Positions 6,140-25,711 of a DNA stretch of 64,000 bases are shown in pieces. The notes beneath the pieces were generated by a model that was not told where the DNA came from, searched no databases, and was given only the letters and a program-made list of their open reading frames with translations. How positions within the stretch are numbered: position 1 is the first letter of the stretch; each line of letters begins with the position of its first letter. The position numbers were made by a program, and so were the translations under genes. The DNA comes from Bosea sp. 124. Lineage in GTDB: Bacteria; Pseudomonadota; Alphaproteobacteria; Rhizobiales; Beijerinckiaceae. Location of the stretch: positions 1,931,001-1,995,000 of the forward strand of contig NZ_PZZM01000001.1 in the NCBI RefSeq assembly GCF_003046175.1, read 5' to 3'.

Positions 6140-6244
6140 AATGAAGCCGTTTTGCGGTTCCCGGCCTGGCTTTACAGGCTTGGGGCGAAGGCTTAAGAGC
6201 CACGCACCGAGCCCTCCAGCCAGACATTCCAAGCGATCCGGCTT

Positions 6245-7321: not shown

Positions 7322-7326
7322 CCTGA

Positions 7327-9347: not shown

Positions 9348-9356
9348 GGTCGCGCC

Positions 9357-10268
9357 ATGGCGACGGTCATGCTCACGGGACCGTCCGGCTTTCTCGGCAG
9401 CCATCTGCTCGATCGGCTTCTGCAGGTCGACGGCATGGCGATCCATGCCGTCAGCCGGACCGGGACAGGACGGGCCCATGACCGGCTGACCTGGCATCGG
9501 GGCGACCTTCTCGACCCCAGCATGGCGGGACGCCTGATGGCGGAGGCGCGGCCGACGCATCTCCTGCACAATGCTTGGTTCGCGGTGCCCGGCCGCTTCT
9601 GGAGCGACCCCGCCAATCTCACCTGGCTGCAGGCGAGCATCGCTCTGATGGCGGCATTCGCGGAGAGCGGCGGGCGGCAGTTTGTCGGGGTCGGCACCTG
9701 CGCCGAATACGACTGGTCGGGTAGCAAGCCTTATGCGGAGGACACGACGCCGATCAGGCCAGCGACCCTCTACGGCAAATGCAAGGCCGCCTGCTGGGCG
9801 GCGGCTCAGGCCTTCGAGGCGGCCGGGACCTTTCGCGCGGCTTGGGGGCGGGTCTTTCTGCCTTACGGCGAAGGCGACACCCAGGGCCGGCTTCTGCCGA
9901 GCCTGGTCGCCGAATTGCAGGCGGGGCGCCCGATGCTGCTCGGCGACGGGAGCCTGGAACGCGACTTCATCTATGCACCCGACGCGGCCGATCTGCTCGT
10001 GCGGATGTTGATTTCCGAGGCCAGCGGAGCCTTCAACGTGGCGAGCGGCGAGGCGACGGCGCTTGCCGTGGCGATCGAGCATATCGCGGGGCGCCTGGGG
10101 CGGAACGACCTGCTCCGCTTCGGCGCCAGGCCGACCCCGGTGAGCGAGCCGGCCAAGCTCGTTGCCGATCCCGCGAAGGTGCGGGGGACCCTTCAGTGGC
10201 GCCCCCATATGCCTCTTCTGCGTGGGCTTGATACGGTGCTGCAAAGCAGCCTACAAGGCGAACAATGA
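9357..10268 (+). CDS. NAD-dependent epimerase/reductase (SDR), CDP-sugar 4-ketoreductase candidate
   Basis: A 303-residue extended SDR with MLTGPSGFLGSHLLD as the nucleotide-binding motif, GVGTCAEYD near the catalytic serine/threonine and LYGKCKAA as YxxxK. It resembles the reductases that finish CDP-deoxysugars (abequose or paratose synthase type). Following the C-methyltransferase by 9 bases, it probably reduces the 4-keto group of the branched sugar nucleotide. The precise product cannot be read from sequence. Confidence 0.8.
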   Translation: MATVMLTGPSGFLGSHLLDRLLQVDGMAIHAVSRTGTGRAHDRLTWHRGDLLDPSMAGRLMAEARPTHLLHNAWFAVPGRFWSDPANLTWLQASIALMAAFAESGGRQFVGVGTCAEYDWSGSKPYAEDTTPIRPATLYGKCKAACWAAAQAFEAAGTFRAAWGRVFLPYGEGDTQGRLLPSLVAELQAGRPMLLGDGSLERDFIYAPDAADLLVRMLISEASGAFNVASGEATALAVAIEHIAGRLGRNDLLRFGARPTPVSEPAKLVADPAKVRGTLQWRPHMPLLRGLDTVLQSSLQGEQ

Positions 10269-10316
10269 AAAGGGCACAGGCCCATCTCCGCTAACCCGAC
10301 GAAAGTCCTGCCCCTG

Positions 10317-11081
10317 ATGCGCCTCATCATCGATACGAATGCCAAGACCGTCCAGAAGGACGACGGCGCCACTGTCGATCTCTACGGTCGTGAAGCTTTC
10401 GACCTGCTGGCGCAGCTCTGGCTGAAGACGAGCTGGAACCAGAAGTACTCCTACACCTTCTCCTGGATGGGGCGCCCGGTCATCCAGCACCCAGATGACA
10501 TGATCCGCCTGCAGGAGGCGATCTACCGGCTGAAGCCCGACGTCATCATCGAGACCGGCGTCGCCCATGGCGGCTCGCTGATTTATTCGGCCTCCCTGCT
10601 CAAGGCGATGGGCAAGGAGAACGGCCGGGTCGTCGGCGTCGATATCGAGATCCGCCCGCACAACCGCAAGGCCATCGAGGCCCATGAGCTCGCCGGCATG
10701 ATCACGCTGGTCGAGGGTGACTCGGTCGCCCCCGGCATCGTCGCCCAGGCCGCCTCGGCGATCCGGCCGGGGGACGTCGTTCTGGTCATCCTCGATTCCA
10801 ACCACTCCTATGACCACGTCATGGCGGAGCTCGACGCCTACTCGCCGCTGGTCACGTCGGGCTCGTACATCGTGGCCACTGACGGCATCATGGAGATGGT
10901 CTACGACACGCCCCGCGGGCAGCCCGGATGGGACCGCGACAACCCGTCGCGCGCCGCAGTCGATTTCGCTGCGCGCCGCGCCGATTTCGTGGTGGAGGAG
11001 CCGGCGATGCCCTTCAACGAGAGCGAACTCAACCGGTGGGTCACGGCCTGGCCCAATGCTTGGCTGAAACGCGTTTCCTGA
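10317..11081 (+). CDS. Cephalosporin hydroxylase-family (CmcI-like) methyltransferase
   Basis: A 254-residue protein of the CmcI/rhamnosyl O-methyltransferase family. Visible hallmarks are VIIETGVAHGGSLIYSA as the SAM-binding loop, VVGVDIEIRPHN, and LVILDSNHSYDHV containing the metal-binding aspartate and histidine. Despite the family name, such proteins in polysaccharide operons usually act as Mg-dependent sugar O-methyltransferases. The start at 10317 lacks a strong ribosome-binding site. The substrate is probably a hydroxyl of one of the operon's sugars. Confidence 0.85.
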   Translation: MRLIIDTNAKTVQKDDGATVDLYGREAFDLLAQLWLKTSWNQKYSYTFSWMGRPVIQHPDDMIRLQEAIYRLKPDVIIETGVAHGGSLIYSASLLKAMGKENGRVVGVDIEIRPHNRKAIEAHELAGMITLVEGDSVAPGIVAQAASAIRPGDVVLVILDSNHSYDHVMAELDAYSPLVTSGSYIVATDGIMEMVYDTPRGQPGWDRDNPSRAAVDFAARRADFVVEEPAMPFNESELNRWVTAWPNAWLKRVS

Positions 11082-11102
11082 CAGCAATCCGAGACGTCGC
11101 GG

Positions 11103-11666
11103 TTGAAGATCGAGTCACTCCCGCCGGCAGGGCTTCACCTCCTGACGCCCGAGCCCATCGCCGACGTCCGGGGCTTCTTCGCGCGCAGTTTCAGCCGGGA
11201 CGAGATGATCGACCTTGGCCTGGAGGCGGACTTTCCCGAGTGGAGCCTCTCCTTCAACCGGCGTAAGGGAACGTTGCGCGGATTGCACATGCAGACTTCA
11301 CCCCATGCGGAAACGAAGCTCGTCCAGTGCATTCGCGGCGCGGTTCTCGACGTCGCAGTCGATCTGCGGCCGGATTCTCCGAGCTTCGGCGAGCACTGCG
11401 CCGTTGAGCTGTCGGCGGAAAACCGTCGCACGTTCTATATTCCCGAAGGCTTCGCTCATGGGTTCCAGACGCTGACGAACGAAGCCGAACTCCTCTATCA
11501 TATCTCCGTCCGGCACAGCCCCGGCCACGCCCGCGGCGTCCGCTGGGACGACCCGGATCTCGCGATCGCTTGGCCGGACGCCGACAAACGGATCATCTCC
11601 GAACGCGACCTGAGCCTGCCGTTCCTGGCGGCCCTCAAAACGGAATGGCGGATCGGAAAAGCCTGA
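11103..11666 (+). CDS. dTDP-4-dehydrorhamnose 3,5-epimerase-family protein (RmlC-like)
   Basis: A 187-residue cupin of RmlC length, starting at TTG. It has DVRGFFARSFSRDE, the catalytic-histidine region KGTLRGLHMQ, and YIPEGFAHGFQTL. RmlC enzymes epimerise C3 and/or C5 of 4-keto-6-deoxy sugar nucleotides. No rmlA, rmlB or clear dTDP pathway is visible in the window, so it more likely acts on the CDP-4-keto sugar made by rfbF/rfbG, as known for the tyvelose/ascarylose epimerases. That substrate is an inference. Confidence 0.88.
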   Translation: MKIESLPPAGLHLLTPEPIADVRGFFARSFSRDEMIDLGLEADFPEWSLSFNRRKGTLRGLHMQTSPHAETKLVQCIRGAVLDVAVDLRPDSPSFGEHCAVELSAENRRTFYIPEGFAHGFQTLTNEAELLYHISVRHSPGHARGVRWDDPDLAIAWPDADKRIISERDLSLPFLAALKTEWRIGKA

Positions 11667-14392
11667 TGTCCATTTGGAATCCCGCCACGATTCTCAAGAT
11701 CGACCGTGCCAACCGTCTGATCGGAAGGAACCCGAAGACGGTCGTGTTCGTGACGCCGCTGCTGCGCCCGCGCGAGATCAAGATGGCGTCGGCGCTGCGT
11801 AGCAACGGCTGGAAAATCGTGCTGCTCTACAAGCAGACGACGCCGTTCGATCCCTCGAATTTCTTCGATCTTGCGATCAAGCTGGCGGACGAGATCGCGA
11901 TGCATCGCGTCGCCAAGATCCTGGAGCCGCGTCTGTGCCATGTATTCTCGGGAGCGGTGGACGAGGGCGTGCTGCGATTCTGCCGCGACAAACCCTCGCT
12001 CGTCATCGTCGATCTCAACGACATCTTCTGCCCGTCGCTGTTCAACTACCTGCATGAGCGCTTCGAACCGACGCGGGAATGTCTGGCGCTGGCCGACGGG
12101 CTGGTCTGTCGCGACCTCCAGCCGAAGATGGCCGAGCGGCTGGATCGATACGATCTGCCGCCTAAGATCCTGATGTTTCCCGAATATCCCTGGATCGACG
12201 GTCCGGCTGGGGCAGGCGCCAAGGCGAAAGGCGATCCCAATGAGGTGCGCATCGTCTCGGTCGGGACGTTCACGCTCGAAACGCAGGGCATGTTCGACAG
12301 CGCCTACCTGCAGATGGCGCGGATGCTGGCCGAACAGAAGATCCATTTCCATATCTATCCGCATTGGTTCTATCGTGACACACCCGGCTCGTCCTTCCGT
12401 TTCGACCAGAACAAGGACTTCGCCGATTTCGTCGCGCTCGAACAGGAGACGCCATACGTCCATCTCCATGACAGCCTTCCTGTCGAGGAACTAGCGCGCG
12501 AACTTCCGCAATATGACTTCGGCATCGTGGCGGGCGGAAGCGCTGCGCTGGGACAGAAGCTCGACTTTCTGACCCCGAATTACATGCAGGTCTGTTATTC
12601 AGGCCGGATCGCGGATTATCTCGACGCTCGCCTGCCGGTCATCATCAATCGCGAGGTAGGGTTCAACCACCGCATGCTGGCTCATTACGGAGTGGGCATC
12701 GATCTCGGCGGGATATTGCAGCCGGGCTTCCGCGATCGGCTTCTCGCCTTCAAGACCGATCCGGAACTCCGGCAGCGCGTCTCGTCGGCAGCCGAGCAAC
12801 TTGACTTGGGCAATCAGAGCGCCCGCCTCAGCCACTTCTACGAGGAACTGCTGCTTGATCGCCCTGTCAGCGACATTCGCGTGCCCATCTGGATGCGCGC
12901 TTCCAAGCGGCTGCCCGTTTTTGGCCGGCGCATCGCAACCGTGATCGAGAAGGCCCAGGAGGCGAACCGCGGCGACTGGGTTGAAGCCAGGAATGCCCGG
13001 CTGCGCAACCAGCTCGATGCGGAAATGGGTGAGAAGAAGGCGATGACCGAGGCAGCGCAGCGGTTGCTCGCAGCGCTGGGTTTCGCCGATCAGCATGCCG
13101 CCGGACAGACGCGCATGCGGGATCACACGGCCGCTCGTTTGGATGACGCCGCAGAACAGGTTCGCAAGGGAGCGAGCGGCCGCTCGCCAGGGCGTGACGA
13201 GATGGTGGCCAAATACTACGCCGCACTCGAGGAAAACCACGCCTTGCAGGCACGCCTCGCCGATCTGCGCCAGGAGTTGCAACTCGGAGGCATGCAAGTC
13301 GACGAGATCGCCGGTCTGCTGAATTGGCCGGAAATCTCCAACGACAAGGAACGTTCGAGCAGTTTTACCGAGCTGCTCCGGATGACCCGCCTGTTCGTCG
13401 AGGAAGGACGTCGCGGCGTCGGCTCACCGGGAGGTACATCTTCGGCATGGAGCCTTCTGAACCGCAAGAACCTGGACCAGCTCCTGGCCGATGGCTATCG
13501 GCGGTTCAAGCGGACCATCGCTCTCAACTACTTCACCTTTGCCGTTCAGGCCGGCGATCCTCAGATCGCCACGCTCGAGACGCTGATCGGCGAGAAGCGC
13601 GCGCACGCGCTCTGGGCCCTGGCCGAGAAACTGCCGGACGATCCCGACTTCGAGATTCGGCCGCAGACGCATTTTCGCTACCTCATGCTCCTGCTCTGGG
13701 ACCATGCGCTGTCGGTCGACGTGCTCGGCGTGCTCAACAAGATCGAAGAACCGCCGGAGGGCGCGCCGGTCTCACTCACGGTGGATGGCGCGCGCATCTC
13801 GCAGGATCTCGCCAACTCTGCCATCGAGATGTACTCGATAGCACAAGGCGTCGATTTCTCGGCCATCAAGCGCGTCGCCGAGATTGGGGGCGGCTATGGG
13901 CGCAACGCCTACATGCTCGCTCGCTCACACCCGCATCTCAAGATCGTCATGGTGGACATTCCACCGTCGCTCTATCTGTCCCAGCGCTATCTCTCCTCCG
14001 TGCTCCCGCAGCGTCAAGCGTTCCGCGTCCGCGACTTCGAGAGCTTCGACGAGGTGAGGCCCGAGATGGAGGCCGCGTCGCTGGTGTTCCTGCTACCGCA
14101 TCAACTGGCCATGATTCCGGACGATTATCTCGATCTGACGATCAACATTTCCTCTTTCGGCGAGATGACAAGAGCTCAGATTGAGTACTACTTTAATCAG
14201 ATCGACAGAACGACACGCGGAGCTTTTTTCAGCAAGCAATGGGTCGATTCGAAGAACCCCTTCGACAGCCTAGCCCTGACTGAAAACGACTACCCCGTGC
14301 GCTCCAGCTGGCGGAAGATTTTCTCGAACCCTTGCGCCACGAACGAAGCCTTCTTCGAGTCGCTTTACGAGACGAGAAGCCGCGATGGATAA
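11666..14392 (+). CDS. Fusion: GT-B glycosyltransferase-like domain, helical linker and sugar O-methyltransferase domain
   Basis: A 908-residue protein whose ATG overlaps the preceding stop (TGATG). Residues about 1-400 look like a GT-B glycosyltransferase: FVTPLLRPREIKMASALRS at the start, IVSVGTFTLETQG, and YSGRIADYLDARLPVI near the donor site. Residues about 430-560 are rich in charged and small helical residues and may form a coiled coil. The C-terminal third has a SAM-binding motif VAEIGGGYGRNAYMLA and VMVDIPPSLYLSQRYL, characteristic of the putative sugar O-methyltransferase family. It may transfer a sugar and then methylate it. The layout recalls chain-terminating enzymes such as WbdD, though the domains differ. 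Confidence 0.75.
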   Translation: MSIWNPATILKIDRANRLIGRNPKTVVFVTPLLRPREIKMASALRSNGWKIVLLYKQTTPFDPSNFFDLAIKLADEIAMHRVAKILEPRLCHVFSGAVDEGVLRFCRDKPSLVIVDLNDIFCPSLFNYLHERFEPTRECLALADGLVCRDLQPKMAERLDRYDLPPKILMFPEYPWIDGPAGAGAKAKGDPNEVRIVSVGTFTLETQGMFDSAYLQMARMLAEQKIHFHIYPHWFYRDTPGSSFRFDQNKDFADFVALEQETPYVHLHDSLPVEELARELPQYDFGIVAGGSAALGQKLDFLTPNYMQVCYSGRIADYLDARLPVIINREVGFNHRMLAHYGVGIDLGGILQPGFRDRLLAFKTDPELRQRVSSAAEQLDLGNQSARLSHFYEELLLDRPVSDIRVPIWMRASKRLPVFGRRIATVIEKAQEANRGDWVEARNARLRNQLDAEMGEKKAMTEAAQRLLAALGFADQHAAGQTRMRDHTAARLDDAAEQVRKGASGRSPGRDEMVAKYYAALEENHALQARLADLRQELQLGGMQVDEIAGLLNWPEISNDKERSSSFTELLRMTRLFVEEGRRGVGSPGGTSSAWSLLNRKNLDQLLADGYRRFKRTIALNYFTFAVQAGDPQIATLETLIGEKRAHALWALAEKLPDDPDFEIRPQTHFRYLMLLLWDHALSVDVLGVLNKIEEPPEGAPVSLTVDGARISQDLANSAIEMYSIAQGVDFSAIKRVAEIGGGYGRNAYMLARSHPHLKIVMVDIPPSLYLSQRYLSSVLPQRQAFRVRDFESFDEVRPEMEAASLVFLLPHQLAMIPDDYLDLTINISSFGEMTRAQIEYYFNQIDRTTRGAFFSKQWVDSKNPFDSLALTENDYPVRSSWRKIFSNPCATNEAFFESLYETRSRDG

Positions 14393-15845
14393 GGCGATGC
14401 GATACTGCGGCATCTATGATTTCGAGCTTCTGCCCTATGCTCTTGGCGATGCGCTGACGTGGAATGTTCAGACGGCCCTGCGCTGCCTCGAGGCCGGGCG
14501 ACGGGTCGTCGATGCCTATATCTGCATCGATCCGAACCATCCTTCGAGCATCTATCAGCGCGGGCTCGTCACATCCGAGAATTGTGCGCTGTTCTTCAAC
14601 GAGCTCTTCGGCGCCTTCGGAACGCATCCTCTCCTCGGCAACATACATCTCTACGCATCGCGCGAGGAGATGCTCGTGCGGCTGCGTGAGGTCTCCAACG
14701 ACGACCCCGTCAACACCGAGGTCTTGGAGGACTACGAGAGGGTGCTGGGCCAGCGCGACAATGCGGATGCGCTGAACAGCTACTTCATCAAATACATTTA
14801 CTCCCATGCCCGCCTGAACCGCTACCATGACGAGCATGGCCGCATTCCGCTGCTGGTGGCGAGCCGCGGCTGCGGGCCGGATATCGACGGTCTCATGGCC
14901 GGCCCTTTCGCCGGCAAGCGAGTTGTCGTGATTCATCCCCGTCTGCGCAGGCTCGACAATGGTCTGGCGGGCGACCACACCTATTCGCGGGATTCTGATT
15001 TCCTAGAATGGTTCGAATTCGTCCGCCTTGCTGAGGCGAACCACCCCGAAGTCCAATTCGTTGTCATGGGGCGGCTTCAGGAGAAGCCCCTGGAGTTACT
15101 GCGCCGGCCCAACGTCACGAGCCTGCGCGCGCTGGGACTCGGTCTCGGGCATGAGCTGACGTTAATGCTGCGATCCGACCTCTTCATCGGCACGTCGAGC
15201 GGTTTCGCCGCGATGGCCAATTTTTGCGAGATTCCCTACTTCGTCACCCATATGAACCCGGAATCCTGTAACGCCTATGCTATTCCGAATGGCGCCGAAC
15301 GCCTGCCCTTTGCGGCGCCTCATCAGTTTCTCGTCTATGAGCGCGAGAGCAGGGTGCTGCTCGAGACGCTGCTCGAGCGAGGGCTCGCGCTCCCCGCTCG
15401 CAACATCGCACCGGCCGTGCAACGCAAAGACGTCGTCGACGTCCGCTCCTTCGAGCGCGATCGTGCGGCCATGCTGGCGCCCCACGCGTCGACGAGCCGG
15501 TTCTTCATCGACGACACCTATGCCGATCAGGAGACCGCCTTCTTGCTCTGGCCGCGCGTCCAATCGGGCTTCGACGCGGCCGTCCAGGGTGATGAGGCGA
15601 ATGCCCGGGCAGTCGCTCAGCGTGTCGCGCATAATTTTCCTCGCCTGCCCGAAAAATTCTCCGAACTAGCAGGACTGTCCGAAGGCATCGTGCCGCCGCC
15701 CCGGCAGCTCGCCAAGGATCGACTTAAGCGGCGTCTCGTCCACCTGATGGACGGAAACATTCTGCCTCATTCGCTGCGCGGCACGGCAATCCATGCTATC
15801 GGTCGGCGCTTGAAGGATGCTGTTCTGGGATACAGGCGCAGATGA
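14385..15845 (+). CDS. Glycosyltransferase-like protein of unknown specificity
   Basis: A 486-residue soluble protein that overlaps the fusion gene by 8 bases. Its middle part has GKRVVVIHPRLRRLDNG, VQFVVMGRLQEKPLELL and LMLRSDLFIGTSSGFAAMA, which resemble the second Rossmann domain and donor-binding serine-rich turn of GT-B transferases of the heptosyl/fucosyltransferase type. I do not recognise the N-terminal 170 residues. An ATG four codons in (14397) is an alternative start. Position between the methylating fusion and the exporter suggests a late step in glycan assembly, but its function is unproven. Confidence 0.65.
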   Translation: MDKAMRYCGIYDFELLPYALGDALTWNVQTALRCLEAGRRVVDAYICIDPNHPSSIYQRGLVTSENCALFFNELFGAFGTHPLLGNIHLYASREEMLVRLREVSNDDPVNTEVLEDYERVLGQRDNADALNSYFIKYIYSHARLNRYHDEHGRIPLLVASRGCGPDIDGLMAGPFAGKRVVVIHPRLRRLDNGLAGDHTYSRDSDFLEWFEFVRLAEANHPEVQFVVMGRLQEKPLELLRRPNVTSLRALGLGLGHELTLMLRSDLFIGTSSGFAAMANFCEIPYFVTHMNPESCNAYAIPNGAERLPFAAPHQFLVYERESRVLLETLLERGLALPARNIAPAVQRKDVVDVRSFERDRAAMLAPHASTSRFFIDDTYADQETAFLLWPRVQSGFDAAVQGDEANARAVAQRVAHNFPRLPEKFSELAGLSEGIVPPPRQLAKDRLKRRLVHLMDGNILPHSLRGTAIHAIGRRLKDAVLGYRRR

Positions 15846-16699
15846 CGCGTTTCGTCTACACGCCGGATTCCCGGCCAGTCTATGCAAACCTGCTCTCGCC
15901 GGTGCGCGTCATGCGCGACCTATGGCGGTACCGGGAACTGACCTGGACCCTCGCCCAGCGCGATTTTACGGCGACCTATCGCAGCACCTTCCTCGGCGCT
16001 GCGTGGACAATCCTGAGCCCGCTCATCCTGCTGGCACTCTTCACCTTCGTCTTCGGCTACATCTTCAACGGGCGCTTCACCGGAAAGGCTGACGAAACCC
16101 CGGCCGAATTCGCGCTCGCGCTCTTCGTCGGTCTCAGCTTCTATCAATGTATCGCGGCCGCGCTGACCCAGTCGCCTAATCTGCTGATGGCCAACGCCAG
16201 CTATGTGAAGACAATCGCTTTTCCCGTGGAAACGCTCGCGGTCGGCAGCGTCATCATCATGATGATGAACCTGCTGATCGGGCTCGCGCTCTGCCAGGTG
16301 GGCTTCCTGGTGCTGCACGGCTTCGCCTACTGGACCTCCGTCTTCCTGATCGTCCACATCATCTGCATCGGGCTGATCGCGCTGGGCATCTCCTGGTTTC
16401 TGTCCGCGCTCTCCGTCTTCATCCGCGATGTCCCCTCCGTCACATCGCCGCTCAGCATGGTGCTGATGTTCCTGAGCGGCGTGTTCTTCCCGATCGAATC
16501 CCTGCCGCCGCGGCTTCAGCTCGTCTTTCGGATGAACCCGCTGGCGCTCATCATCGATCAGGCTCGCGGGGCCATGTTGTTCGGAAAGGTTCCGTCTTTC
16601 ACCGTCCTGGCTCTCGCCCTGGCGATCAGCCTTTTGGTGGCCATTGCAGGCTATGCTTTCTTCATGCGAAGCAAGCCGGCCTTTTCCGATGTGATGTAG
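15842..16699 (+). CDS. wzm: Polysaccharide ABC exporter permease (Wzm)
   Basis: A 285-residue ABC-2 type membrane protein with about six hydrophobic spans. The N-terminal cytoplasmic part reads DLWRYRELTWTLAQRDFTA and precedes LGAAWTILSPLILLALFTFVFG, typical of Wzm/KpsM/TagG permeases. Late in the chain PLSMVLMFLSGVFFPIESLP is a family signature. It moves undecaprenyl-linked glycan across the inner membrane with the ATPase encoded 3 bases downstream. The ATG overlaps the preceding stop (ATGA). Its presence shows this locus uses the ABC-transporter-dependent route rather than Wzx/Wzy. Confidence 0.9.
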   Translation: MTRFVYTPDSRPVYANLLSPVRVMRDLWRYRELTWTLAQRDFTATYRSTFLGAAWTILSPLILLALFTFVFGYIFNGRFTGKADETPAEFALALFVGLSFYQCIAAALTQSPNLLMANASYVKTIAFPVETLAVGSVIIMMMNLLIGLALCQVGFLVLHGFAYWTSVFLIVHIICIGLIALGISWFLSALSVFIRDVPSVTSPLSMVLMFLSGVFFPIESLPPRLQLVFRMNPLALIIDQARGAMLFGKVPSFTVLALALAISLLVAIAGYAFFMRSKPAFSDVM

Positions 16700-16702
16700 G
16701 GG

Positions 16703-18274
16703 TTGAAGCAAGGCGTGCCGGAAACCACCCAAAACGGGGACGATGAGTTCGCGATTCGGATCGAAGGTGTCTCGAAGGTCTATGGCCTTTGGTCCTCGCC
16801 CGGCGCGCGCCTCAACCATGTGATGCTGGAGATGGCCAAGAGCGTCGTTCCGGCCGGATCGGGCCTTGAGCGCCGCATCGATCGCAAGGTTGCCTCGATC
16901 TATCGCGAGTTCCCGGCGCTGCGCCCGATGTCCCTGGAAATCCGCAAGGGCGAGAGTTGGGGCTTTATCGGCGTCAACGGCAGCGGCAAATCGACCCTGC
17001 TTAAGATGATCTCGGGCAATCTGCGCCCGTCGAGCGGGCGCATCGAGGTCAATGGGCGCGTGGCCATCCTCGACTATTCCTCCGGTCTGCACGGCGATTT
17101 CACGGGTCGCGAGAACATTTTCCTGAAGGCGGCCGTGCTGGGGATGACCCGTCGCGACACCGAGGCGAAGCTGTCCTCGATCATCGATTTCGCCGATATC
17201 GGGGAGTTCATCGATCAGCCGGTCAAGACCTATTCGAGCGGCATGATGGCTCGACTGGGATTTGCCATCGTCGCCCATACCGAGGCCGACATCATCATTA
17301 CCGACGAGGCGCTGGCCGTCGGCGACGCCTTCTTCGTCCAGAAATGCATGGACTTCATCCGCGGCTTCCTCAAGCGCGGCACCTTTCTGTTCGTGTCCCA
17401 TTCCACGAACGACGTCATCTCGCTGTGCCAGAAGGCCGCCTGGCTGGACCATGGCCAGGTTCGCCGGATCGGGAGTGCCAGGGACGTTGCAGACGCGTAC
17501 CTGAATAGCCATGCGCTGGATCATTCAGAACGCTATCTTAAGAGCCAACAGCAGAGCGAAGCGGCAGCCAACCAGCAGGAACCCTCCGATGTCGAGCAGC
17601 CCGTATCTCCGCTGCCAGCGCCGGTCGCCCCCCGAGCAAGAAAGCACGTCAAGCTGAACGCAAGGCAGATCGCCCAGCTTCAAGATTACGTTGCTCCTGC
17701 TCTGTCGAACCGGCACCCGCAGCATCAGGCCGTCATTGCGATGGATGTGACTGCGAAACTTTCGCCGGAAGACATCATGAACAAAGGCCACGGGACCGGC
17801 GGGGCGAAGATCGTTTTCGTAAAGCTGCTCGATAATGAAGGGCGCATCCTTCCGTTCGTAATCGGCGGTGAAGAAGTCGCCCTGAGGATCGAATGCATTG
17901 CTGAACGGAAAATCGCGCGTCCCATCCTCGGCTTTCAACTACGCAACAACTTGGGCTTGACGTTATTTGCCAATAACACCGCCTCGGTTATGACCGATCG
18001 GGACCTCAGTGTCGAAGCCGGGCAGATTATGACGGTCGATATCGTCTTTGCGATGCCTCTGCTGCAGGTGGGCGATTATGTCGTACGCGTGGGCCTCGCT
18101 GATGGCGAGGAAGCCTCCAACGCACTTCTCGACATGCAACAGGAGGCTCTCCTCATCCAGTGTCGGACATCGGGTAGTCGGCATGGGCTCGTCAACCAAC
18201 CGCTCCTCAGTGTCGAATTTCGAGTCAGGGATGACGAAGGCGTAATCGCGATTCTAGAAGGAGATCCGACTTGA
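16703..18274 (+). CDS. wzt: Polysaccharide ABC exporter ATPase with C-terminal glycan-recognition domain (Wzt)
   Basis: A 523-residue protein. Residues 15-260 form the ATPase: Walker A GVNGSGKST at 90-98, signature TYSSGMMARLG, Walker B IIITDEALAVGD and the switch histidine in FVSHST. After a Ser/Glu/Pro-rich linker (about 275-325) comes a beta-rich domain of about 170 residues corresponding to Wzt_C, with KIVFVKLLDNEGRILPF and LGLTLFANNTAS. In known systems Wzt_C binds the modified non-reducing end of the finished glycan. The start is TTG; a GTG four codons later (16715) is equally possible. The stop overlaps the sulfotransferase start. Confidence 0.9.
   Translation: MKQGVPETTQNGDDEFAIRIEGVSKVYGLWSSPGARLNHVMLEMAKSVVPAGSGLERRIDRKVASIYREFPALRPMSLEIRKGESWGFIGVNGSGKSTLLKMISGNLRPSSGRIEVNGRVAILDYSSGLHGDFTGRENIFLKAAVLGMTRRDTEAKLSSIIDFADIGEFIDQPVKTYSSGMMARLGFAIVAHTEADIIITDEALAVGDAFFVQKCMDFIRGFLKRGTFLFVSHSTNDVISLCQKAAWLDHGQVRRIGSARDVADAYLNSHALDHSERYLKSQQQSEAAANQQEPSDVEQPVSPLPAPVAPRARKHVKLNARQIAQLQDYVAPALSNRHPQHQAVIAMDVTAKLSPEDIMNKGHGTGGAKIVFVKLLDNEGRILPFVIGGEEVALRIECIAERKIARPILGFQLRNNLGLTLFANNTASVMTDRDLSVEAGQIMTVDIVFAMPLLQVGDYVVRVGLADGEEASNALLDMQQEALLIQCRTSGSRHGLVNQPLLSVEFRVRDDEGVIAILEGDPT
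18256..18263 (+). promoter_or_regulatory. Ribosome-binding site deciding the TTG start of the sulfotransferase
   Basis: AGAAGGAG lies 7 bases before the TTG at 18271 and inside the end of wzt. It is one of the strongest Shine-Dalgarno matches in the operon, so the sulfotransferase is probably translated efficiently despite the weak start codon and in step with wzt. Confidence 0.6.
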
Positions 18275-19074
18275 CGGATTTCACAGAGGCAGCCAGGTCG
18301 CTGGACGGGTTGCTGTCGAGGGTTCTCCACTGCCCGATGGACACTGTTCCCAAGCTAGATGCGCGGCCGAAAATTCTGCTTGCCAGTGCTCCCAAGAGCG
18401 GATCAACCTGGCTCACTATGCTATTGTCTGAAAATTTCGAGCTCCCGGCGGTGCGCGGTTATCTAGAGGGCGGGCATAACGAGCAAGAGATCGATTTTAT
18501 ACAGTTTTCAAAGCAGATGGGAAATTCATGCCTTTTTGTACAACAGCATATCCGCGCGTCTGATCCAACGATCAGAATTTGCTTAGCCTTTAATACAAAA
18601 ATCGTCGTTCAGACCCGAAATTTATGCGACACGCTTGTATCGTTTCACGATCATATTTTGAACGAATCCGACATCGCTTCGATGTTTTTTGTCAAGACTG
18701 AATGGTTTTCTGAATTTACACACGAAAAGAGATTCGATTTCCTGATTGAGCACTGCCTTCCTTGGTATATCAACTTTCTAACTGGATGGCTGTCTGCGAG
18801 AAACCGTTATCCCTGCGAGATTCTCTTCGTCCGATACGAAGATCTGATCAACGATGTCGGTGGCGTTATTAGTCGGATATCACGATTTTCGGGGCTCGGC
18901 CAAGGCGTCGATGCGACGAAATATCGGCAGGTCACAGGCAATCTTCGCCTTAATGAAGGCCGAAGCGGGCGTGGGTCCGAAATGCTGACCCCTAATCAGC
19001 TAACGCGCATCGAGCGACTATTGAGCTATTATCCCAACGATTTGGGGTATGCGGAATTCGCTTTCGCCCGGTGA
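18271..19074 (+). CDS. PAPS-dependent sulfotransferase
   Basis: A 267-residue protein with the 5'-phosphosulfate loop ASAPKSGSTWL at about residues 39-48 and a 3'-phosphate region VVQTRNLCDTLVSFHDH, both typical of cytosolic sulfotransferases (Sulfotransfer_1). It would move sulfate from PAPS to a hydroxyl of a sugar. The start is TTG, overlapping the wzt stop (TTGA). A strong AGAAGGAG at 18256-18263, 7 bases upstream, supports it. The gene is visibly richer in A and T than the rest of the operon, suggesting later acquisition. cysD-cysNC next door make its donor. Confidence 0.88.
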   Translation: MTDFTEAARSLDGLLSRVLHCPMDTVPKLDARPKILLASAPKSGSTWLTMLLSENFELPAVRGYLEGGHNEQEIDFIQFSKQMGNSCLFVQQHIRASDPTIRICLAFNTKIVVQTRNLCDTLVSFHDHILNESDIASMFFVKTEWFSEFTHEKRFDFLIEHCLPWYINFLTGWLSARNRYPCEILFVRYEDLINDVGGVISRISRFSGLGQGVDATKYRQVTGNLRLNEGRSGRGSEMLTPNQLTRIERLLSYYPNDLGYAEFAFAR

Positions 19075-19092
19075 CAGAATAGTGCGGCGCGA

Positions 19093-19326
19093 TCAAACGC
19101 ACTGATTTTTGACGAGATAGTCGACTGCGGTGATCGCTAACTCCTCTGCGTGCGTTGTGTCCGTCTTGAACGTCAATTCGAGATTCTCAGGGGTTTCTTC
19201 GTCAACGACCGGTCGACCTATCGACTCTTTACCCAGACGAGACAGGGCGCGGGCCTCGATAGGGGCTGGCTTGTGGCGGCGCTGGCCGATGAACTGTCTG
19301 ATCTGATCGAGGACCAGTTCATCCAT
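19093..19326 (-). CDS. Small hypothetical protein, possibly acyl-carrier-protein-like
   Basis: A 77-residue ORF in the 330-base gap between the sulfotransferase and cysNC. The start region MDELVLDQIRQFIGQ and the end TAVDYLVKN resemble the first and last helices of acyl carrier proteins. GKESIGRPVVDE could hold the phosphopantetheine serine, though the usual DSL is ESI and the middle part fits poorly. It may be a diverged or decaying carrier protein, or a chance ORF. A plus-strand ORF of similar length overlaps it and looks less protein-like. Its stop lies 18 bases from the sulfotransferase end. Confidence 0.35.
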   Translation of the reverse strand: MDELVLDQIRQFIGQRRHKPAPIEARALSRLGKESIGRPVVDEETPENLELTFKTDTTHAEELAITAVDYLVKNQCV

Positions 19327-19403
19327 CGCGAGAACCTGCTGGCGCTCTGCCTGACGCTGCTCCCAGGATAATGAACGTCGCGATCGCCGAATCGACAGGC
19401 CGA

Positions 19404-21305
19404 TCAGGCGATGATGCCCTTCTGCTTCAGGTAGGCGATGATCTCTTCGACGGCCTCTTCAGGCGCCCGACCGACCGTCGTCACGCGGATCTCCGACTGT
19501 TCCGGCCGCTCATAGGGGCTATGAACGCCGGTGAAGTCTTCAATCTCGCCGGCGCGCGCCTTCCGGTAGAGACCCTTCGGGTCGCGCGCTTCCGCGACGT
19601 CGAGCGGTGTATCGACGAAGACTTCGATGAACTCGCCGGGCTCGAACAGGGACCGCGCGGCCTCGCGGTCGGCGCCATAAGGTGAGATCAGCGCCGTCAG
19701 GACGACGAGGCCGGCATCGACGAAAAGCCGTGCGACCTCGGCAACGCGCCGGATGTTCTCGACACGATCGGCTTCGCTGAAACCGAGGTCGCGGTTGAGA
19801 CCGTGGCGGACATTGTCGCCGTCGATCAGATAGGTGTGGTGGCCGAGCGAGAAGAGTCGGCGCTCAAGCAGGTTCGCGATCGTCGATTTCCCGGAGCCCG
19901 ACAGCCCGGTGAACCAGATCACGGCGGGAGGCTGGTTCAACGCATTGGCTCGCAATTCCTTCGTCAAGTCGACCGCCTGCCAGTGCACGTTGCGGCCCTG
20001 CGACAATGCGCCGTGGACCATGCCCGCGCCGACCGTCGCATTGCTCAGTCTGTCGATGACGATGAAGCTGCCCATCGCCGGGATGTCGGCATAGCGATCG
20101 AACACGATCGGCCGGCTGAAATGAAGATGGACGAAGCCGATATCGTTGTTGGAGAGTTCCTTGGCGGCGAGAGGCTGCCGCGTTTCGACGTCAACGAGAT
20201 GGATGATCTCCGTGACCGAGCCCTCGAGCGTCTGGGTGCCGATCTTGAAGACGTAGGATCGTCCCGGGACAAGCTTGGACTCGTGCATCCAGATCAGATG
20301 CGCCGTGATCTGCTCCGAAACCTCCGGCACGGCGTGGACATGCGACAGAACGTCGCCGCGTGCGATATCGAGTTCGCGATCGAGCCTGACCGTCACAGCC
20401 TCGCCCGCCTCGGCACTGTCCTGCTCGCCGCCGAGGCCCAGGATCGCACTGACCGTTGCCGTCGTTCCAGAGGGGGCCACGGCGATCTGATCGCCGATCG
20501 TCAGCCTGCCACTGGCGAGCGTTCCAGCATAGCCGCGGAAGTCCGCATCGGGCCGAATGACGAGTTGGACCGGCAGGCGCAGGGGGGCCTGCGCGGTGGG
20601 GCCGCCAACATCGATCTCCTCGAGATGCTCGAGGAGCGTCGGGCCGCGGTACCAGCCGAGCCTCGCGCTGCGCTCCACGATGTTGTCGCCATGGCGCGCG
20701 CTGATCGGAATGGCCTGCACGGAGGAAAAGCCAAGCTTCGCCGAGAAGGCGGCGTATTCCGCCTCGATCCTATCGAACACCGACCGATCGAAATCGACGA
20801 GATCGATCTTGTTGACGGCCAGGACGACATGCCGGATGCCGAGCAGCGAAGCGATACAGGAGTGCCGGCAGGTCTGGGACAGAATGCCTTTGCGGGCATC
20901 GACGAGGATGACCGCGAGATCGGCCGTCGATGCTCCCGTCGCCATGTTGCGGGTATATTGCTCATGGCCTGGCGTGTCGGCGACGCGGAAACGGCGCCTG
21001 GACGTCGCGAAGGAGCGGTAGCACACGTCGATCGTGATGCCCTGCTCGCGCTCGGCCTCCAGCCCGTCGAGCAGCAGGGCGAAATCGAGCGTCGAACCCT
21101 CGCTGCCGTGCCGCAGCGAGTCGCGTTCGAGCGCGGCGAACTGATCGTCGAGCAGAAAGCCCGTGTCGAACAGCAGCCGGCCGATCAGCGTCGATTTCCC
21201 GTCATCGACGCTGCCGCAGGTCAGGAACCGCAGCAATGGCGCCTGTCTTTGCTGCGAACCGCCGGCATAGGTCGCGTCGGCGGGCGCATGGCCCATCCTC
21301 ATCAA
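19404..21305 (-). CDS. cysNC: Bifunctional sulfate adenylyltransferase subunit 1 / adenylylsulfate kinase (CysNC, NodQ-like)
   Basis: A 633-residue two-domain enzyme. The N-terminal GTPase part has [15 protein letters not shown] (G1), [18 protein letters not shown] (G3) and NKIDLVDF (G4), as in CysN. The C-terminal 180 residues are an APS kinase with P-loop GLSGSGKST and [16 protein letters not shown]. CysN with CysD makes APS from sulfate and ATP using GTP. The kinase part phosphorylates APS to PAPS. It overlaps cysD by 4 bases. No cysH, cysI or cysG is near, so the pair looks devoted to PAPS for sulfation rather than assimilation, comparable to nodPQ (inference). Confidence 0.95.
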
Positions 21306-22219
21306 AAGTAACCTTCGCGTTTTTTTCGTTCCATCGAGCCGGACTGATCGTGATCGATGACCCTGCCGGCGCGCTCCGACTGGCGAAACCCGTTCAACTC
21401 CCTGACGATGGCGGCAGCACTAGTCGCCTTCGACGCAATCGCCGCTGTCAGGGGGTAGCAGCCAAGTGTGCGGAAGCGCACGCTCTCACGCCGGGACTGC
21501 TCTCCCGGAGCGAGAGGAAATCGATCGTCATCGACCATGATCAGGTGTCCGGCGCGCGTGACGACCGGCCGTTCGGCTGCGAAATAGAGCGGGACGATCC
21601 CGATCCGCTCGCGCTCGATATAGGCCCATACGTCCGCCTCGGTCCAATTGGCGATGGGAAACACCCTTACCGATTCGCCAGTCCGGATGCGGGTGTTGTA
21701 CAGGTTCCACAGTTCCGGCCGCTGGTTGCGCGGATCCCATGCATGGCTCGCGCTGCGGACCGAGAAGATGCGCTCCTTGGCCCGGCTCTTCTCCTCGTCG
21801 CGCCGCGCACCGCCGAATGCGGCGTCGAAACCGTGCCGGTCAAGCGCCTGCTTCAGCGCCTCGGTCTTCATGACCCGGGTATAGGTCGATGCGTCGTGGC
21901 TGAAGGGCGTGATCCCGAGCGCAAGCCCTTCCTCATTCCTGTGGACAATGAGGTCCATTCCGGACTGCGCGGCCACCTCGTCCCGGAAACGGATCATCTC
22001 GCCGAACTTCCACGTCGTGTCGACATGGAGCAGCGGGAACGGCGGCGGAGCCGGGTAGAAGGCCTTGCGTGCCAGATGCAGCATGACCGACGAATCCTTG
22101 CCGATCGAATAGAGCATCACCGGTGCGCGGAATTCGGCCGCGACCTCCCGCATGATGTGGATCGCTTCCGCTTCGAGCACATCGAGATGGGTTCTTGTGT
22201 TGGATCCGGGGATCGTCAT
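21302..22219 (-). CDS. cysD: Sulfate adenylyltransferase subunit 2
   Basis: A 305-residue PP-loop ATPase, normal for CysD. The pyrophosphatase-type motif [20 protein letters not shown] and the later [18 protein letters not shown] are family signatures. With CysN it adenylates sulfate. It is the first gene of the cysD-cysNC pair. The 233-base region upstream (22220-22452) presumably holds its promoter, but I see no clear sigma-70 elements or known riboswitch there. Confidence 0.95.
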
Positions 22220-22452
22220 CGTCCTGCTGCAAGCGCATGGGCGCGGAGCACGGGGCGACTCACCCGCCGTCCACTACGCGCATTCACGGTAAGGCGCGCT
22301 TATAGGGTGGCCCCGCCTCTTGCAGAAGATGTAATTTTGCTCCGTCTGACCCGCGTGAAGAGCGGAGGAGGTCTGGTTCGGGCGTGATCGTCGACACAGA
22401 GTGAGAGCATGGCTTCAGCGAAAAGCTGGTTCCTCCATTTTCACGGAATGCC

Positions 22453-24081
22453 CTAGCGATAGGGAGCGAGCGCCGGGGGTTTGTGGTCCGCAACCAGCCC
22501 GCTGGTCGGGCCCGACCAGCCCGAGGCGAGCTGCGCGGCGGTGCCGTCAGCCATCAGCGCATAGAGCTTCAGGGGTTCACGCTGCTGCGTGACATCGACG
22601 GGTGCGATCAGCGTGAAGCTTGAGGGAAACGCACCGCTGGCGATGTTCTGCTCGATATCGACGCGCCGCCCAACCGGCTCGCTGCGCGCGACGATCCTGT
22701 TCCCGACCGTTGCGACGATCGCCTGCACGGGCTTGTTGGCGGCCTGGTCGGCGGCCCAGCCGGTCACCGTGATCCCAACCGGGCCAGGTGACGCCGATTC
22801 GATCGCCCCTGCGAAACGGGAGACGATGGGATGGTGGGTCGATTCGATCAGCAGCCCGTCGGCCTCGGCGGTTCCGATCTCGGCAATCGTGAAATAGGCC
22901 GCACGCAGCTCCGCGATGCGCGCGGCTCCTCCACCGGCGAGATCGCCGCGCGCGTTCTCGAACGTCAGTGCGAAGGGCAGATTGCGCTTGGTCCAGGCCC
23001 GGATGGCTTCGCGGCGCTGCGCGACATGTTCCTTCACATTGTCTGGGGTGAGCCGCACCATGAAGTTCGGCGGCGTGCCTGGCTCCGCGCGGCCCAGCAG
23101 CGCCAGTTGCATGGCTTTGCCGACCTCCAGCGAGAAATGGATCGGGTCGTTCCAGTAGGCCATCCGGCTGGCGGGCGGTTCCTTGCTCCAGGCGTTGGCT
23201 TGGGCGAAGCTGTAGACGTCCGCCTTCGCGGTCAGGCGCGTCAGCCATTCCTCGACCAGGCCCCAGGCATCGACGGTGTCGATGTAGTAGTCGAAATAGG
23301 CGTGGTTGGGTGTCGCGAGGAAGGTCAGCGCGATGTTGCGGCGTTTTGCGGTCTCGATAATCTGATCGACCGATGCGAATGCGGCATCGCTGAGAGTGAG
23401 CGTGCGGGTGCGACGGAAGATGTCCCACATCCCAGCGGGAAACGCGCTGAAGGTGCCGCTGGGATCATGTCCGGCGGGATAGAAGAAGTAGCCGCCGGGC
23501 CGAACCTCATAGACCGAGCGGCGATCGAAGCGGTTGTGTGCGACCGTTGCCAAGCTGTCAATTACGGCATTGCCGCTGAACGTCAGCGAGAAAACATCCC
23601 GCAGCAGATGCCATGCCGGCATTGGGTCCGCAGTCTGGCCCTGACCAAGAAAATTATAGAGATAGATTTCGACAAAGGCGTTCTCGATACTCGGTGCGAT
23701 CCGGCCGTAGAGATCCAGATACGCGACGTTCATGCCGAGCGAGACGGCGGGCACCGAGGCATTGTAGGCGGGTGCAAATCGGCTGCCGTCGAGCACCGAG
23801 GGATCGATCGACTGATGGATGCGCGAGGTACCGAGGACGACCGTCTTCGGCTGCTTCTGCCAGACCTCGATCGGCTTGATCAGCCGGTCGATATCCTTGC
23901 GCTTCGGCTTGATCGCGTTGAATCCGGAAAGCGACACTCCCAGCGGGGAGATGCCGTAGGGGTCGACGACGGTGACGAGCCCGACGACGAGAGCCGCAGC
24001 GCCGACGCAGCCGCCAAGCAGCCAGCGCAGGAAACCGGGCGCGACCCCCTCAGAACTGGAAGTAGAGGAAGGGGCTGACAC
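22453..24081 (-). CDS. AlgJ/AlgX-like SGNH-type protein with extra C-terminal domain
   Basis: A 542-residue protein with one N-terminal membrane span (LLGGCVGAAALVVGLVTVVD). The periplasmic part carries TVVLGTSRIHQSIDP, with the likely nucleophilic serine, and NDPIHFSLEVGKAM, with the likely Asp-His pair, as in AlgJ/AlgX-type acetyl-handling proteins. The last 140 or so residues (GITVTGWAADQ to ALMADGTAAQL) look like a beta-sandwich found in other polysaccharide proteins. It overlaps the upstream MBOAT gene by 32 bases, so the two probably O-acetylate a glycan together. A clear paralogue without the extension lies at 32128-33297. Confidence 0.75.
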   Translation of the reverse strand: MSAPSSTSSSEGVAPGFLRWLLGGCVGAAALVVGLVTVVDPYGISPLGVSLSGFNAIKPKRKDIDRLIKPIEVWQKQPKTVVLGTSRIHQSIDPSVLDGSRFAPAYNASVPAVSLGMNVAYLDLYGRIAPSIENAFVEIYLYNFLGQGQTADPMPAWHLLRDVFSLTFSGNAVIDSLATVAHNRFDRRSVYEVRPGGYFFYPAGHDPSGTFSAFPAGMWDIFRRTRTLTLSDAAFASVDQIIETAKRRNIALTFLATPNHAYFDYYIDTVDAWGLVEEWLTRLTAKADVYSFAQANAWSKEPPASRMAYWNDPIHFSLEVGKAMQLALLGRAEPGTPPNFMVRLTPDNVKEHVAQRREAIRAWTKRNLPFALTFENARGDLAGGGAARIAELRAAYFTIAEIGTAEADGLLIESTHHPIVSRFAGAIESASPGPVGITVTGWAADQAANKPVQAIVATVGNRIVARSEPVGRRVDIEQNIASGAFPSSFTLIAPVDVTQQREPLKLYALMADGTAAQLASGWSGPTSGLVADHKPPALAPYR

Positions 24082-25627
24082 GGGCCAATCCGAGCACTGA
24101 AACGACGAACATGAAGCCGAGCAACACGGCCTGCGCCGGACCGAGCCGCGACAGGATACCGGTACCGCCCTGAAGCCGCTCGTCGATCCCGATCGCTGGC
24201 TCGAAGCGGCCGAGCAGGCGATAGGTGTTGGGCATGAGGAAGGTCAGCGCCGTGACGAGTGCCAGCAGCAGCCCCACCGGCTTCGCCATCGTCGCGAGAT
24301 AGTTCGGCGGCAGGACTGGCGGCCAGAGTTCGCGCGGCGTGAACCAGGTATCGAAGGCGCCGAAAATTCCGACATACTGCGCTGTGACGAAGGCCTTGAA
24401 AGAAACCAGTGCTCCCGGGCCGGGCATGAGGAAACCCAGCATCGTCGTCGCCTGCGACAGACCCGGCGAGCGGAACGGCACCCAGGCCAGCGTCACCAGC
24501 AGGAAGGTCAGGAAAACGAAGAAAATTCGCGCCGGAGCGCCCCTGAGCCAGCGGGACTGCGAGAGCGGTATCGCGGCCCAGGCGTGGTTGATCGCGAGCA
24601 TCAGGCCGTGCAGCACGCCCCAGACGGCGAAGGTCCAGTTGGCGCCGTGCCAGAGGCCACCGAGCAGCATGACCAGTCCCAGATGGAGATAGCGCCGCAG
24701 CGGGCCGTGCCGGTTCCCGCCGAGCGGGATGTAGAGATAGTCGCGCAGGAACCGCGACAGCGTGATGTGCCAGCGCCGCCAGAATTCCACGATGGACGCG
24801 GATTTGTAGGGCGAGAGGAAGTTGACCGGCAGCCTGATGCCGAACATCCGCCCCAGCCCGACAGCCATCTCGGAGTATCCCGAGAAATCGTAGTAGAGCT
24901 GGAAGGAATAGCTCAGCACGGCCACCCATGCCGAGGCGAAGTCGAGCGTCTGCCCCGCCGCGACCGCAGCATAGCCGGCGTCGGCGTAGACGGCGAGCGT
25001 GTCGGCGATCACCACCTTCTTGAACAGGCCGATGATGAAGATGCTGCAGCCGATGGCGAAGTCGCGGCTGAAGTCACGGCGCGGTGCCTCCTTGAGCTGG
25101 GGCATCACCTCGGCATGGTGGACGATCGGGCCCGCGATGAGCTGCGGAAAGAAGGTCACGAAGAAGCAGTAGTTCAGGACCGAGAAGTCCTTGACCTTGC
25201 CGCGATAGGCATCGACCAGGAAGGCGATCTTCTGGAAGGTGATGAAGGAGATACCGATCGGCAGCAGAATCTGCGGCAGCGTCCAGTTGGACCCGAAAGC
25301 CGTGTTCACGTTGCTGACGAAAAAGTTGGCATATTTGAAGTAGCCGAGCAGCGCCAGATTGAAGGCGAGGCCGGCGATCAGCACCAGGCGGGACTTCTTG
25401 CCTTCGCCCGGCATTGCCATCAGGATCTTGCCGAAGATCAGGTTGGCGATGATCGAGGTGAGGATCAGGAGCAGGAACTCCGCCTTCCACCATCCGTAAA
25501 AGAACAGCGACGCGGCCGTGAGCCAAACGATCGCCCAGTTCAGGTTCTCCAGCCGGCGCAACAGCGCAAAGCCCACCAGCACGACCGGCAGGAAGGCAAA
25601 GATAAAGACGTAGGAGTTGAACAGCAT
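24050..25627 (-). CDS. MBOAT-family O-acyltransferase (AlgI-like)
   Basis: A multi-spanning membrane protein of 525 residues counted from MLFNSYVFIFAFLPVVL, the usual AlgI-type start. The open frame extends 21 codons further, but those residues are not hydrophobic or family-like. GGLWHGANWTFAVWGVLHG contains the conserved MBOAT histidine. AlgI-like proteins pass acetyl groups across the inner membrane to periplasmic acetyltransferases. The partner is the overlapping AlgJ-like gene downstream. The target is probably one of the two glycans made in this region. Confidence 0.9.
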   Translation of the reverse strand: MLFNSYVFIFAFLPVVLVGFALLRRLENLNWAIVWLTAASLFFYGWWKAEFLLLILTSIIANLIFGKILMAMPGEGKKSRLVLIAGLAFNLALLGYFKYANFFVSNVNTAFGSNWTLPQILLPIGISFITFQKIAFLVDAYRGKVKDFSVLNYCFFVTFFPQLIAGPIVHHAEVMPQLKEAPRRDFSRDFAIGCSIFIIGLFKKVVIADTLAVYADAGYAAVAAGQTLDFASAWVAVLSYSFQLYYDFSGYSEMAVGLGRMFGIRLPVNFLSPYKSASIVEFWRRWHITLSRFLRDYLYIPLGGNRHGPLRRYLHLGLVMLLGGLWHGANWTFAVWGVLHGLMLAINHAWAAIPLSQSRWLRGAPARIFFVFLTFLLVTLAWVPFRSPGLSQATTMLGFLMPGPGALVSFKAFVTAQYVGIFGAFDTWFTPRELWPPVLPPNYLATMAKPVGLLLALVTALTFLMPNTYRLLGRFEPAIGIDERLQGGTGILSRLGPAQAVLLGFMFVVSVLGLARVSPFLYFQF

Positions 25628-25711
25628 CGGATCGAAATCAGGCCGGAGGGAGTGAAGGGGGCCGATCGTGAGTGTCGGCCGGAGGCGCATGCTGCACCCC
25701 CAACCGTTCCA

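Follow-up and report, generated by a model that had tools for sequence, protein, structure and literature searches.

A sulfotransferase gene coupled to wzt in Bosea sp. 124 and a possible sulfate cap in ABC-dependent polysaccharide export

Reading of the chain cap by Wzt_C, the carbohydrate-binding domain of the transporter subunit Wzt, is a quality check in the ATP-binding cassette (ABC)-dependent export of O-polysaccharides. In such O-antigen systems a coiled-coil ruler is the mark of the chain terminator (available parts of PMC11231755 and PMC3482155), and methyl, methyl-phosphate and also 3-deoxy-D-manno-oct-2-ulosonic acid (Kdo) serve as export caps (available part of PMC11231755). We analysed a stretch of 64,000 nucleotides from Bosea sp. 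124 (contig NZ_PZZM01000001.1, positions 1,931,001 to 1,995,000; "the window", from whose first letter its coordinates are counted), in which a sulfotransferase gene, here called ST, overlaps the end of wzt. The first-pass annotation of this DNA had proposed a sulfate cap read by Wzt and had listed methyl or phosphate caps for known Wzt_C domains; Kdo was missing from the list. We put the probability that sulfate is the non-reducing-end cap, or part of the cap, that Wzt reads in this Wzm/Wzt surface polysaccharide locus at roughly one half.

As in the WbdD-type systems of E. coli O9a/O8 and K. pneumoniae O3/O5/O7, the Wzm/Wzt exporter has a C-terminal binding domain and a modifying enzyme is placed on a coiled coil, in a single protein with a glycosyltransferase (GT)-like part in the relatives L010 and P0045-P0052 described below. 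The difference is that the modifying enzyme is a sulfotransferase, encoded in the window by a separate gene coupled to wzt, and that a Pfam scan of ST found no kinase domain. Likeness to the A. aeolicus WzmWzt, which exports chains with a 3-O-methyl-mannose/rhamnose cap, lies in the overall fold (7k2t_A) and in a retained Asn313, whereas Leu300, Thr346 and Trp362 are replaced by Gln, Arg and Val or Met in the window clade. The A. salmonicida wbsalmo locus (wzt, the gene for the ST-domain protein ORF19, wbbB) likewise has an ST gene directly 3′ of wzt; it differs in the presence of WbbB (63% identity to the K. pneumoniae protein), and for ORF19 the available part of the paper gives neither sulfate nor a function (PMC4483657). 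The group III ABC capsule locus of Cobetia marina KMM 1449 also combines cysN/cysC-cysD with ST in a locus for an ABC-exported polysaccharide, but the sulfate lies in the repeat, the exporter is kpsETMD, and the word "wzt" does not occur in the paper (PMC11766843). Neither a sulfate cap read by Wzt nor WbdD together with a sulfotransferase was found in the open-licence literature.

The wzt/ST junction and the supply of activated sulfate

The ABC-2 membrane subunit gene wzm (15842..16699, +; PF01061 2.4e-20) adjoins wzt, which was called as an open reading frame (ORF) at exactly 16703-18274 (+; 523 aa). Its TTG start comes from the ORF call and is unsure, a database relative (P0024) having 519 aa. 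Wzt consists of a nucleotide-binding domain (NBD; ~residues 1-265, ABC_tran 2.5e-21 at residues 73-204), a linker and, as first annotated, a C-terminal Wzt_C domain (PF14524 4.6e-24, residues 363-498), which together with the adjoining membrane subunit gives the layout of cap-directed Wzm/Wzt exporters. ST was called at exactly 18271-19074 (+; 267 aa, TTG start). The claim that it starts in the wzt stop codon behind a ribosome-binding site proved correct: the junction reads ...AAGGAGATCCGAC-TTGA, the overlap at 18271..18274 (+) being formed by the ST TTG (18271-18273) and the wzt TGA (18272-18274), with AAGGAG (18258..18263, +) 7 nt 5′ of the TTG. AAGGAG occurs 19 times on the plus strand of the window against ~12 expected by base frequency; the motif by itself is therefore not rare, and it is its placement that matters. 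In L011, from a Rhodocyclales metagenome-assembled genome (MAG), wzt and ST likewise overlap by 4 nt (ATGA).

PF00685, a broad family, matched ST at 1.4e-14 (54.6 bits vs a cut-off of 22) and PF13469 at 4.6e-8. These were the only modifying-enzyme domains in ST, which in this respect lacks the methyltransferase and kinase of a WbdD-type terminator. Residues P41, K42, S43, S45, T46, H93, R116, D120 and S124 were invariant across 15 aligned relatives and, with PKSxST and RxxxDxxxS among their patterns, represent motifs for catalysis and for the 3′-phosphoadenosine 5′-phosphosulfate (PAPS) site.

Genes for PAPS supply lie next to ST on the minus strand: cysNC (19404..21305), encoding the ATP sulfurylase large subunit fused to adenosine 5′-phosphosulfate (APS) kinase (NF004035 2.8e-284, above cut-off), and cysD (21302..22219), encoding the small subunit (NF009214 5.3e-153). 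With an E-value limit of 0.01, ST was the single PF00685 match in the whole genome. Two CysNC matches were found at 1e-40, a limit that might miss a short APS kinase encoded on its own; only that at 19404..21305 was full-length, the second being the CysN part alone. By these counts, the one PF00685 sulfotransferase and the one full-length CysNC that were found are neighbours within a polysaccharide locus. Full-length CysNC matches were present in 14 of the 41 genus genomes searched. The window Wzt was matched at 1e-80 in 1 of 61 relatives, its own genome, and since 36 of the others belong to the same genus, this Wzt is absent from the other sampled genus members at this threshold. In L145 (2689-5285; genome G066), an APS kinase-like gene directly upstream of wzm-wzt shares 54% identity with the CysC portion of the window CysNC and provides a further link between PAPS and Wzt_C export. 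The wzm/wzt-type O-antigen cluster of A. hydrophila O33 contains cysC, citT, cysN and cysD, according to the available part of PMC6124807.

Coiled-coil fusions and the relatives of ST

ST is one of two candidate cap-modifying enzymes encoded in the cluster. The other, rival or partner to it, is GT-CC-MT (11633..14392, +; start uncertain), with a putative GT part, a short coiled-coil-like stretch (Pro-free at 429-518) and a NanM-type sugar O-methyltransferase (TIGR04371 1.9e-33 at residues 702-866; Methyltransf_2 1.2e-5). An alignment of seven STs searched against the contigs of 84,980 species genomes gave 10 loci, and a Wzt_C gene was present in the stretch at four of them: L010 and L011, both from Rhodocyclales MAGs, and L017 and L019, near copies of each other. 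Besides wzm and wzt, the window, L010 and L011 have in common GT-CC-MT, the protein encoded before wzm and a GT2 protein.

In L010, ST is the C-terminal domain (residues 842-1021) of a single ORF of 1074 aa, whose N-part is 49% identical to the window GT-CC-MT and is followed by a Pro-free stretch of 381 residues (436-816). The order N-part, Pro-free stretch, ST domain recurs in eight database proteins (P0045-P0052, 947-1189 aa). Their N-parts are 50-55% identical to that of the window GT-CC-MT, which brings the range for the nine GT-CC-ST fusions to 49-55%; their longest Pro-free stretches span 173-423 residues, and their ST domains are 42-46% identical to the window ST. The coiled coil in the fusions was assigned from helix prediction, the Pro-free stretches and weak coiled-coil Pfam matches. 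AlphaFold2, run on a nine-row alignment, modelled helices at 429-591 and 597-799, in the region that separates the enzyme parts, with low overall confidence (mean pLDDT, the predicted local distance difference test, 58). Heptad periodicity measured by Fourier power was unconvincing as evidence for a coiled coil and was set aside. A long coiled coil is thus joined to ST in L010 and P0045-P0052, and the window ST is free-standing. As judged from these alignments, one type of chassis is combined with a methyltransferase in some proteins and with a sulfotransferase in others.

In a tree of 38 STs (P0011, P0023, L019 as a copy of L017, and P0044, the same as L010, were left out), the window ST fell into a 15-row clade with support 100/100, together with L011, L010, the eight database fusions and P0002-P0005. 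Among the 15, two STs (window and L011) show the 4-nt overlap with wzt and nine are fused to the chassis, a share set by the search, as eight of the nine came from a search of long proteins only. The STs P0002 and P0004 probably lie on the same contigs as the Wzts P0025 and P0028, their longest contigs matching in length (18311 and 37295). The window and P0025 are sisters in the Wzt_C tree (97/99), and P0001 and P0002 are sisters in the ST tree (100/100). ST missing from other Wzt contigs is uninformative, since the same listing omitted the L011 ST too. For P0043 the trees disagree, its NBD grouping with P0025 (95/90, on a long branch) and its Wzt_C with P0040-P0042 (100/100), and a less firm conflict was seen for P0040. 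This suggests that Wzt_C domains may change partners.

The protein before wzm (14385..15845, +; 486 aa) is possibly a glycosyltransferase; BLAST gave 46-49% identity to the ORFs before wzm in L010 and L011, and Pfam and NCBIfam scans were without a match. L011 contains ~2 kb of additional DNA between wzm and wzt (6186-8176), in which there are two ORFs, 429 and 198 aa long.

The Wzt_C pocket, the slot after wzt and a low-GC3 block

In A. aeolicus Wzt_C, the 3-O-methyl cap is held by Leu300, Thr346, Ala348 and Trp362, plus Asn313 and His350 (available part of PMC9445017). We mapped these positions, from sequence only, by profile alignment to 7k2t/8dky and by two Wzt_C alignments, one with 92 rows and one with 97. 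In the window Wzt, Gln412 (17936..17938, +) takes the place of Leu300, Arg462 (18086..18088, +), a candidate sulfate ligand, that of Thr346, Gly that of Ala348, Ala that of His350, and Met, which is Val in relatives, that of Trp362. Throughout the 15-member Wzt_C clade, Arg and Gln were each present in 15/15 and Trp in 0/15, so that the clade lacks the methyl pocket of Leu300/Thr346/Ala348/Trp362; Asn313 was retained in 15/15. Among the 23 Wzt_C loci of the Trp362 type, Arg at Thr346 and Gln at Leu300 were found in 0/23 each. Ala at His350 was frequent in the Trp362-type loci too and does not discriminate. By these alignments the clade pocket is no longer a methyl pocket and carries a positive charge that is invariant within the clade; a pocket changed in this way would fit an anionic cap. 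In a structure comparison the overall fold was that of A. aeolicus 7k2t_A, and the match list, filled by NBDs, was uninformative on other families.

Wzt_C was found at 82 places in 73 of 378 genomes drawn from the phylum. The pocket table started from 80 of the 81 places outside the window, G493 being omitted; a Wzt ORF of at least 360 aa was present at 67 of them, and L010, L011, L017 and L019 bring the rows to 71. Both Arg and Gln were found in two of the remaining 51 Wzt_C loci, L080 and L121, which are distant and less surely aligned. L080 (7322-9065; genome G530) has two consecutive ST genes directly after wzt in addition to Arg and Gln, which makes it a second, if distant, candidate for a Wzt_C of the sulfate type.

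The gene directly after wzt had a methyltransferase domain by Pfam in 13 of the 18 scanned Trp362-type loci, either stand-alone or N-terminal in a large glycosyltransferase; three of the 13 (L073, L074, L075) are from one genus and not independent. In the other five, the slot was held by glycosyltransferases (L061, L064, L069), a dehydrogenase (L062) and a GDP-mannose dehydratase (L076). In the window and L011 it is held by ST, which follows wzt also in other Wzt_C types (L079, L080, L017/L019). L084 and L089 were scanned at the second gene only (none and one methyltransferase), L092 lay outside the scan, and the count omits L141, with repA next on the opposite strand, and L142, with an annotated methyltransferase just before wzt; L141-L143 came from similarity searches, outside the phylum draw. 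A regular-expression scan for methyltransferases near wzt (3/23 Trp-type, 17/51 other loci) was dropped as insensitive compared with Pfam.

Among the matches listed, ST followed Wzt_C within 300 nt and in the same orientation at 3 of the 82 places (window, G836 and G530); 50 of the places and 29 of the listed STs, chosen by eye for a shared contig, were compared by script and the other rows by eye. The ST profile run over the fetched stretches L059-L138 found only L079 (G836) and L080 (G530). A uniform null for adjacency (0.006 expected for 81 places) used rough inputs (163 STs, mean genome of 4.2 Mb) and was not relied on, because it ignores the clustering of STs in polysaccharide loci. With the Wzt family, we obtained matches at 1e-90 in 29 of 399 genomes of the G062 order, full-length in G062 only; at 1e-125 in three of 345 genomes of the G062 family (G062, G061 and G1130, the last with a Trp362-type Wzt and then a methyltransferase); and at 1e-120 in two of 385 genomes of the class of the window genome (G000), its own and G745, whose Wzt is of the Trp362 type with a methyltransferase. 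GT-CC-MT matched only its own genome at 1e-15 among 299 phylum genomes. A cluster with this Wzt_C but without ST or without GT-CC-MT was not found in these Wzt and GT-CC-MT searches, and presence or absence therefore cannot separate ST from GT-CC-MT as the cap enzyme. Plasmids were negative for ST at 1e-8 and for GT-CC-MT at 1e-20; 29 plasmid records had Wzt_C-like matches, at identities of at most 38%.

ST has a GC content of 0.490 and a third-codon-position GC content (GC3) of 0.545. The other listed genes of 8058-26941 have GC of 0.605-0.684 and GC3 of 0.739-0.878 (0.819 for cysNC), except for the half of wzt that encodes the linker and Wzt_C (GC 0.572, GC3 0.643), the NBD half having a GC3 of 0.804. 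GC3 steps down within wzt at the NBD/Wzt_C border (Fisher p 5e-5), and the low GC3 continues into ST. The NBD-minus-Wzt_C difference of 0.160 ranks second among 72 Wzt genes, the other 71 having a mean of 0.016 (SD, standard deviation, 0.072); in L010 and L011 the step is absent. On base composition there is moderate support for a joint entry of the reader domain (Wzt_C) and the writer gene (ST). The suggestion of the first-pass annotation that the A/T-rich ST is a swapped-in cap enzyme has partial support, as both ST and the Wzt_C half of wzt are low in GC3. A second low-GC patch (0.46-0.53) lies at 30413-32140, with a TylF-type methyltransferase and a 229-aa protein.

At 2447-4197 and 6245-9347 the window has genes that may form a pathway to a branched deoxysugar. 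They encode a transketolase split in two (PF00456; PF02779/PF02780), a protein resembling nucleotide-sugar 4,6-dehydratases, a nucleotidyltransferase and a C-methyltransferase; transketolase-like ORFs of similar appearance, read by eye, lie upstream in L146/L147. An MBOAT acyltransferase (PF03062) adjoins a 542-aa protein without a Pfam match at 22453-25690 (−), a possible O-acylation module. A paralogue of the 542-aa protein (389 aa, 37% identity) lies ~8 kb off at 32128-33297 (+).

Cap or decoration, and what a sulfate cap would mean

That ST belongs to the export system and occupies the place of the cap enzyme is well supported, because of the chassis fusions, the methyltransferases in 13/18 slots, the pocket replacements and the adjacent PAPS genes. 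The sulfate cap proposed at first pass stands to this extent; a terminal position of the sulfate, its recognition by Wzt_C through Arg462 and a role in termination are steps that we infer. The most specific version would be a new cap chemistry, with a terminal sulfate ester set by an ST in the ruler complex of the exporter and read by a Wzt_C with an anion pocket (Arg462/Gln412), reader and writer having moved as one cassette. We hold this version tentatively, at a little under even odds.

Starting from the observed gene content, coupling, PAPS genes, pocket substitutions, fusions and low-GC3 block, the mechanism can be drawn by analogy with A. aeolicus, E. coli O9a and K. pneumoniae. The chain would be extended at the cytoplasmic face while attached to a lipid carrier. 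ST would be made from the same message as Wzt, PAPS coming from the neighbouring CysNC/CysD, and ST, probably in a complex with GT-CC-MT, would act in the cytoplasm on the lipid-linked chain and sulfate its last residue, alone or together with a methyl group from GT-CC-MT. Sulfation would halt chain growth, Wzt_C would bind the sulfated end via Arg462 and its neighbours in the pocket with Gln412, and ATP binding would free the end so that the chain could enter the Wzm channel.

Several observations weigh against a sulfate cap read by Wzt. Arg was present at the Thr346 column in 18 of the remaining 51 Wzt_C loci, so Arg alone is no mark of sulfate. The L121 genome (G718) has no PF00685 match despite Arg and Gln in its pocket, which weighs against a strict pocket rule; conversely, L017/L019 and L079 have ST after wzt and neither Arg nor Gln, and P0040-P0042, outside the clade, also have both residues. 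The neighbourhood was readable for a minority of the 15 Wzt_C clade members, so that Wzts of this type may also occur without ST, and the slot count covers 18 of the 23 Trp362-type loci with no contrast group from the 51 others. The A. salmonicida O antigen has no known sulfate in the available text (PMC4483657), so that adjacency of wzt and ST is by itself insufficient, and A. hydrophila O11 has wzt-wbbB without ST and a Wzt of 438 aa, as in A. salmonicida (available parts of PMC4483657 and PMC4413209).

GT-CC-MT, with its TIGR04371 match to sugar O-methyltransferases, is present in all three clusters read (window, L010/L146 and L011/L147) alongside ST, so that the cap could be methyl, with the sulfate at internal positions. 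In such a case GT-CC-MT would provide a methyl cap read in the usual way by Wzt_C, and ST would decorate internal residues of the repeat. The retained Asn313 (15/15) is consistent with this, as is the Cobetia marina capsular polysaccharide, where a locus with kpsETMD, PAPS genes and ST makes a polysaccharide with sulfate (Rhap2S) internal to the repeat, according to the available part of PMC11766843. However, Leu300, Thr346 and Trp362 are replaced in 15/15, the slot after wzt is held by ST and not by a methyltransferase, and an ST mounted on a coiled coil is hard to reconcile with modification of every repeat. We consider this arrangement rather unlikely, with the qualification that the presence of a coiled-coil methyltransferase leaves room for a cap that may be methyl or mixed methyl and sulfate.

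Terminal sulfate could also be optional, diversifying the chain end without being needed for export, like the pyruvate of K. pneumoniae O1. The equal length of the Aeromonas Wzts with and without an ST gene, in the available parts of the papers, points this way, but the K. pneumoniae O1/O2 transporter has no binding module (available part of PMC11231755), whereas the window Wzt has one, with a changed pocket; we regard an optional sulfate as improbable. It is very improbable that ST acts on some other acceptor (glycan, lipid or small molecule) and came to lie next to wzt by a chance of horizontal transfer, for although PF00685 is broad and 6 of the 10 ST loci, with more distant STs (L012-L016, L018), have no Wzt_C gene in the stretch read, coupling or fusion of ST with the export system is seen in separate lineages.

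If sulfate is the cap that Wzt reads, cap-directed export would keep its logic, whereas its chemistry and the enzyme class on the ruler would be new, and its export marks would include one that is charged and PAPS-dependent. The GT-coiled-coil-sulfotransferase proteins offer a defined enzyme for testing, and the gene after wzt together with the pocket residues gives a testable rule for predicting cap type from sequence. Wzt_C plus ST would then be a possible swappable module.

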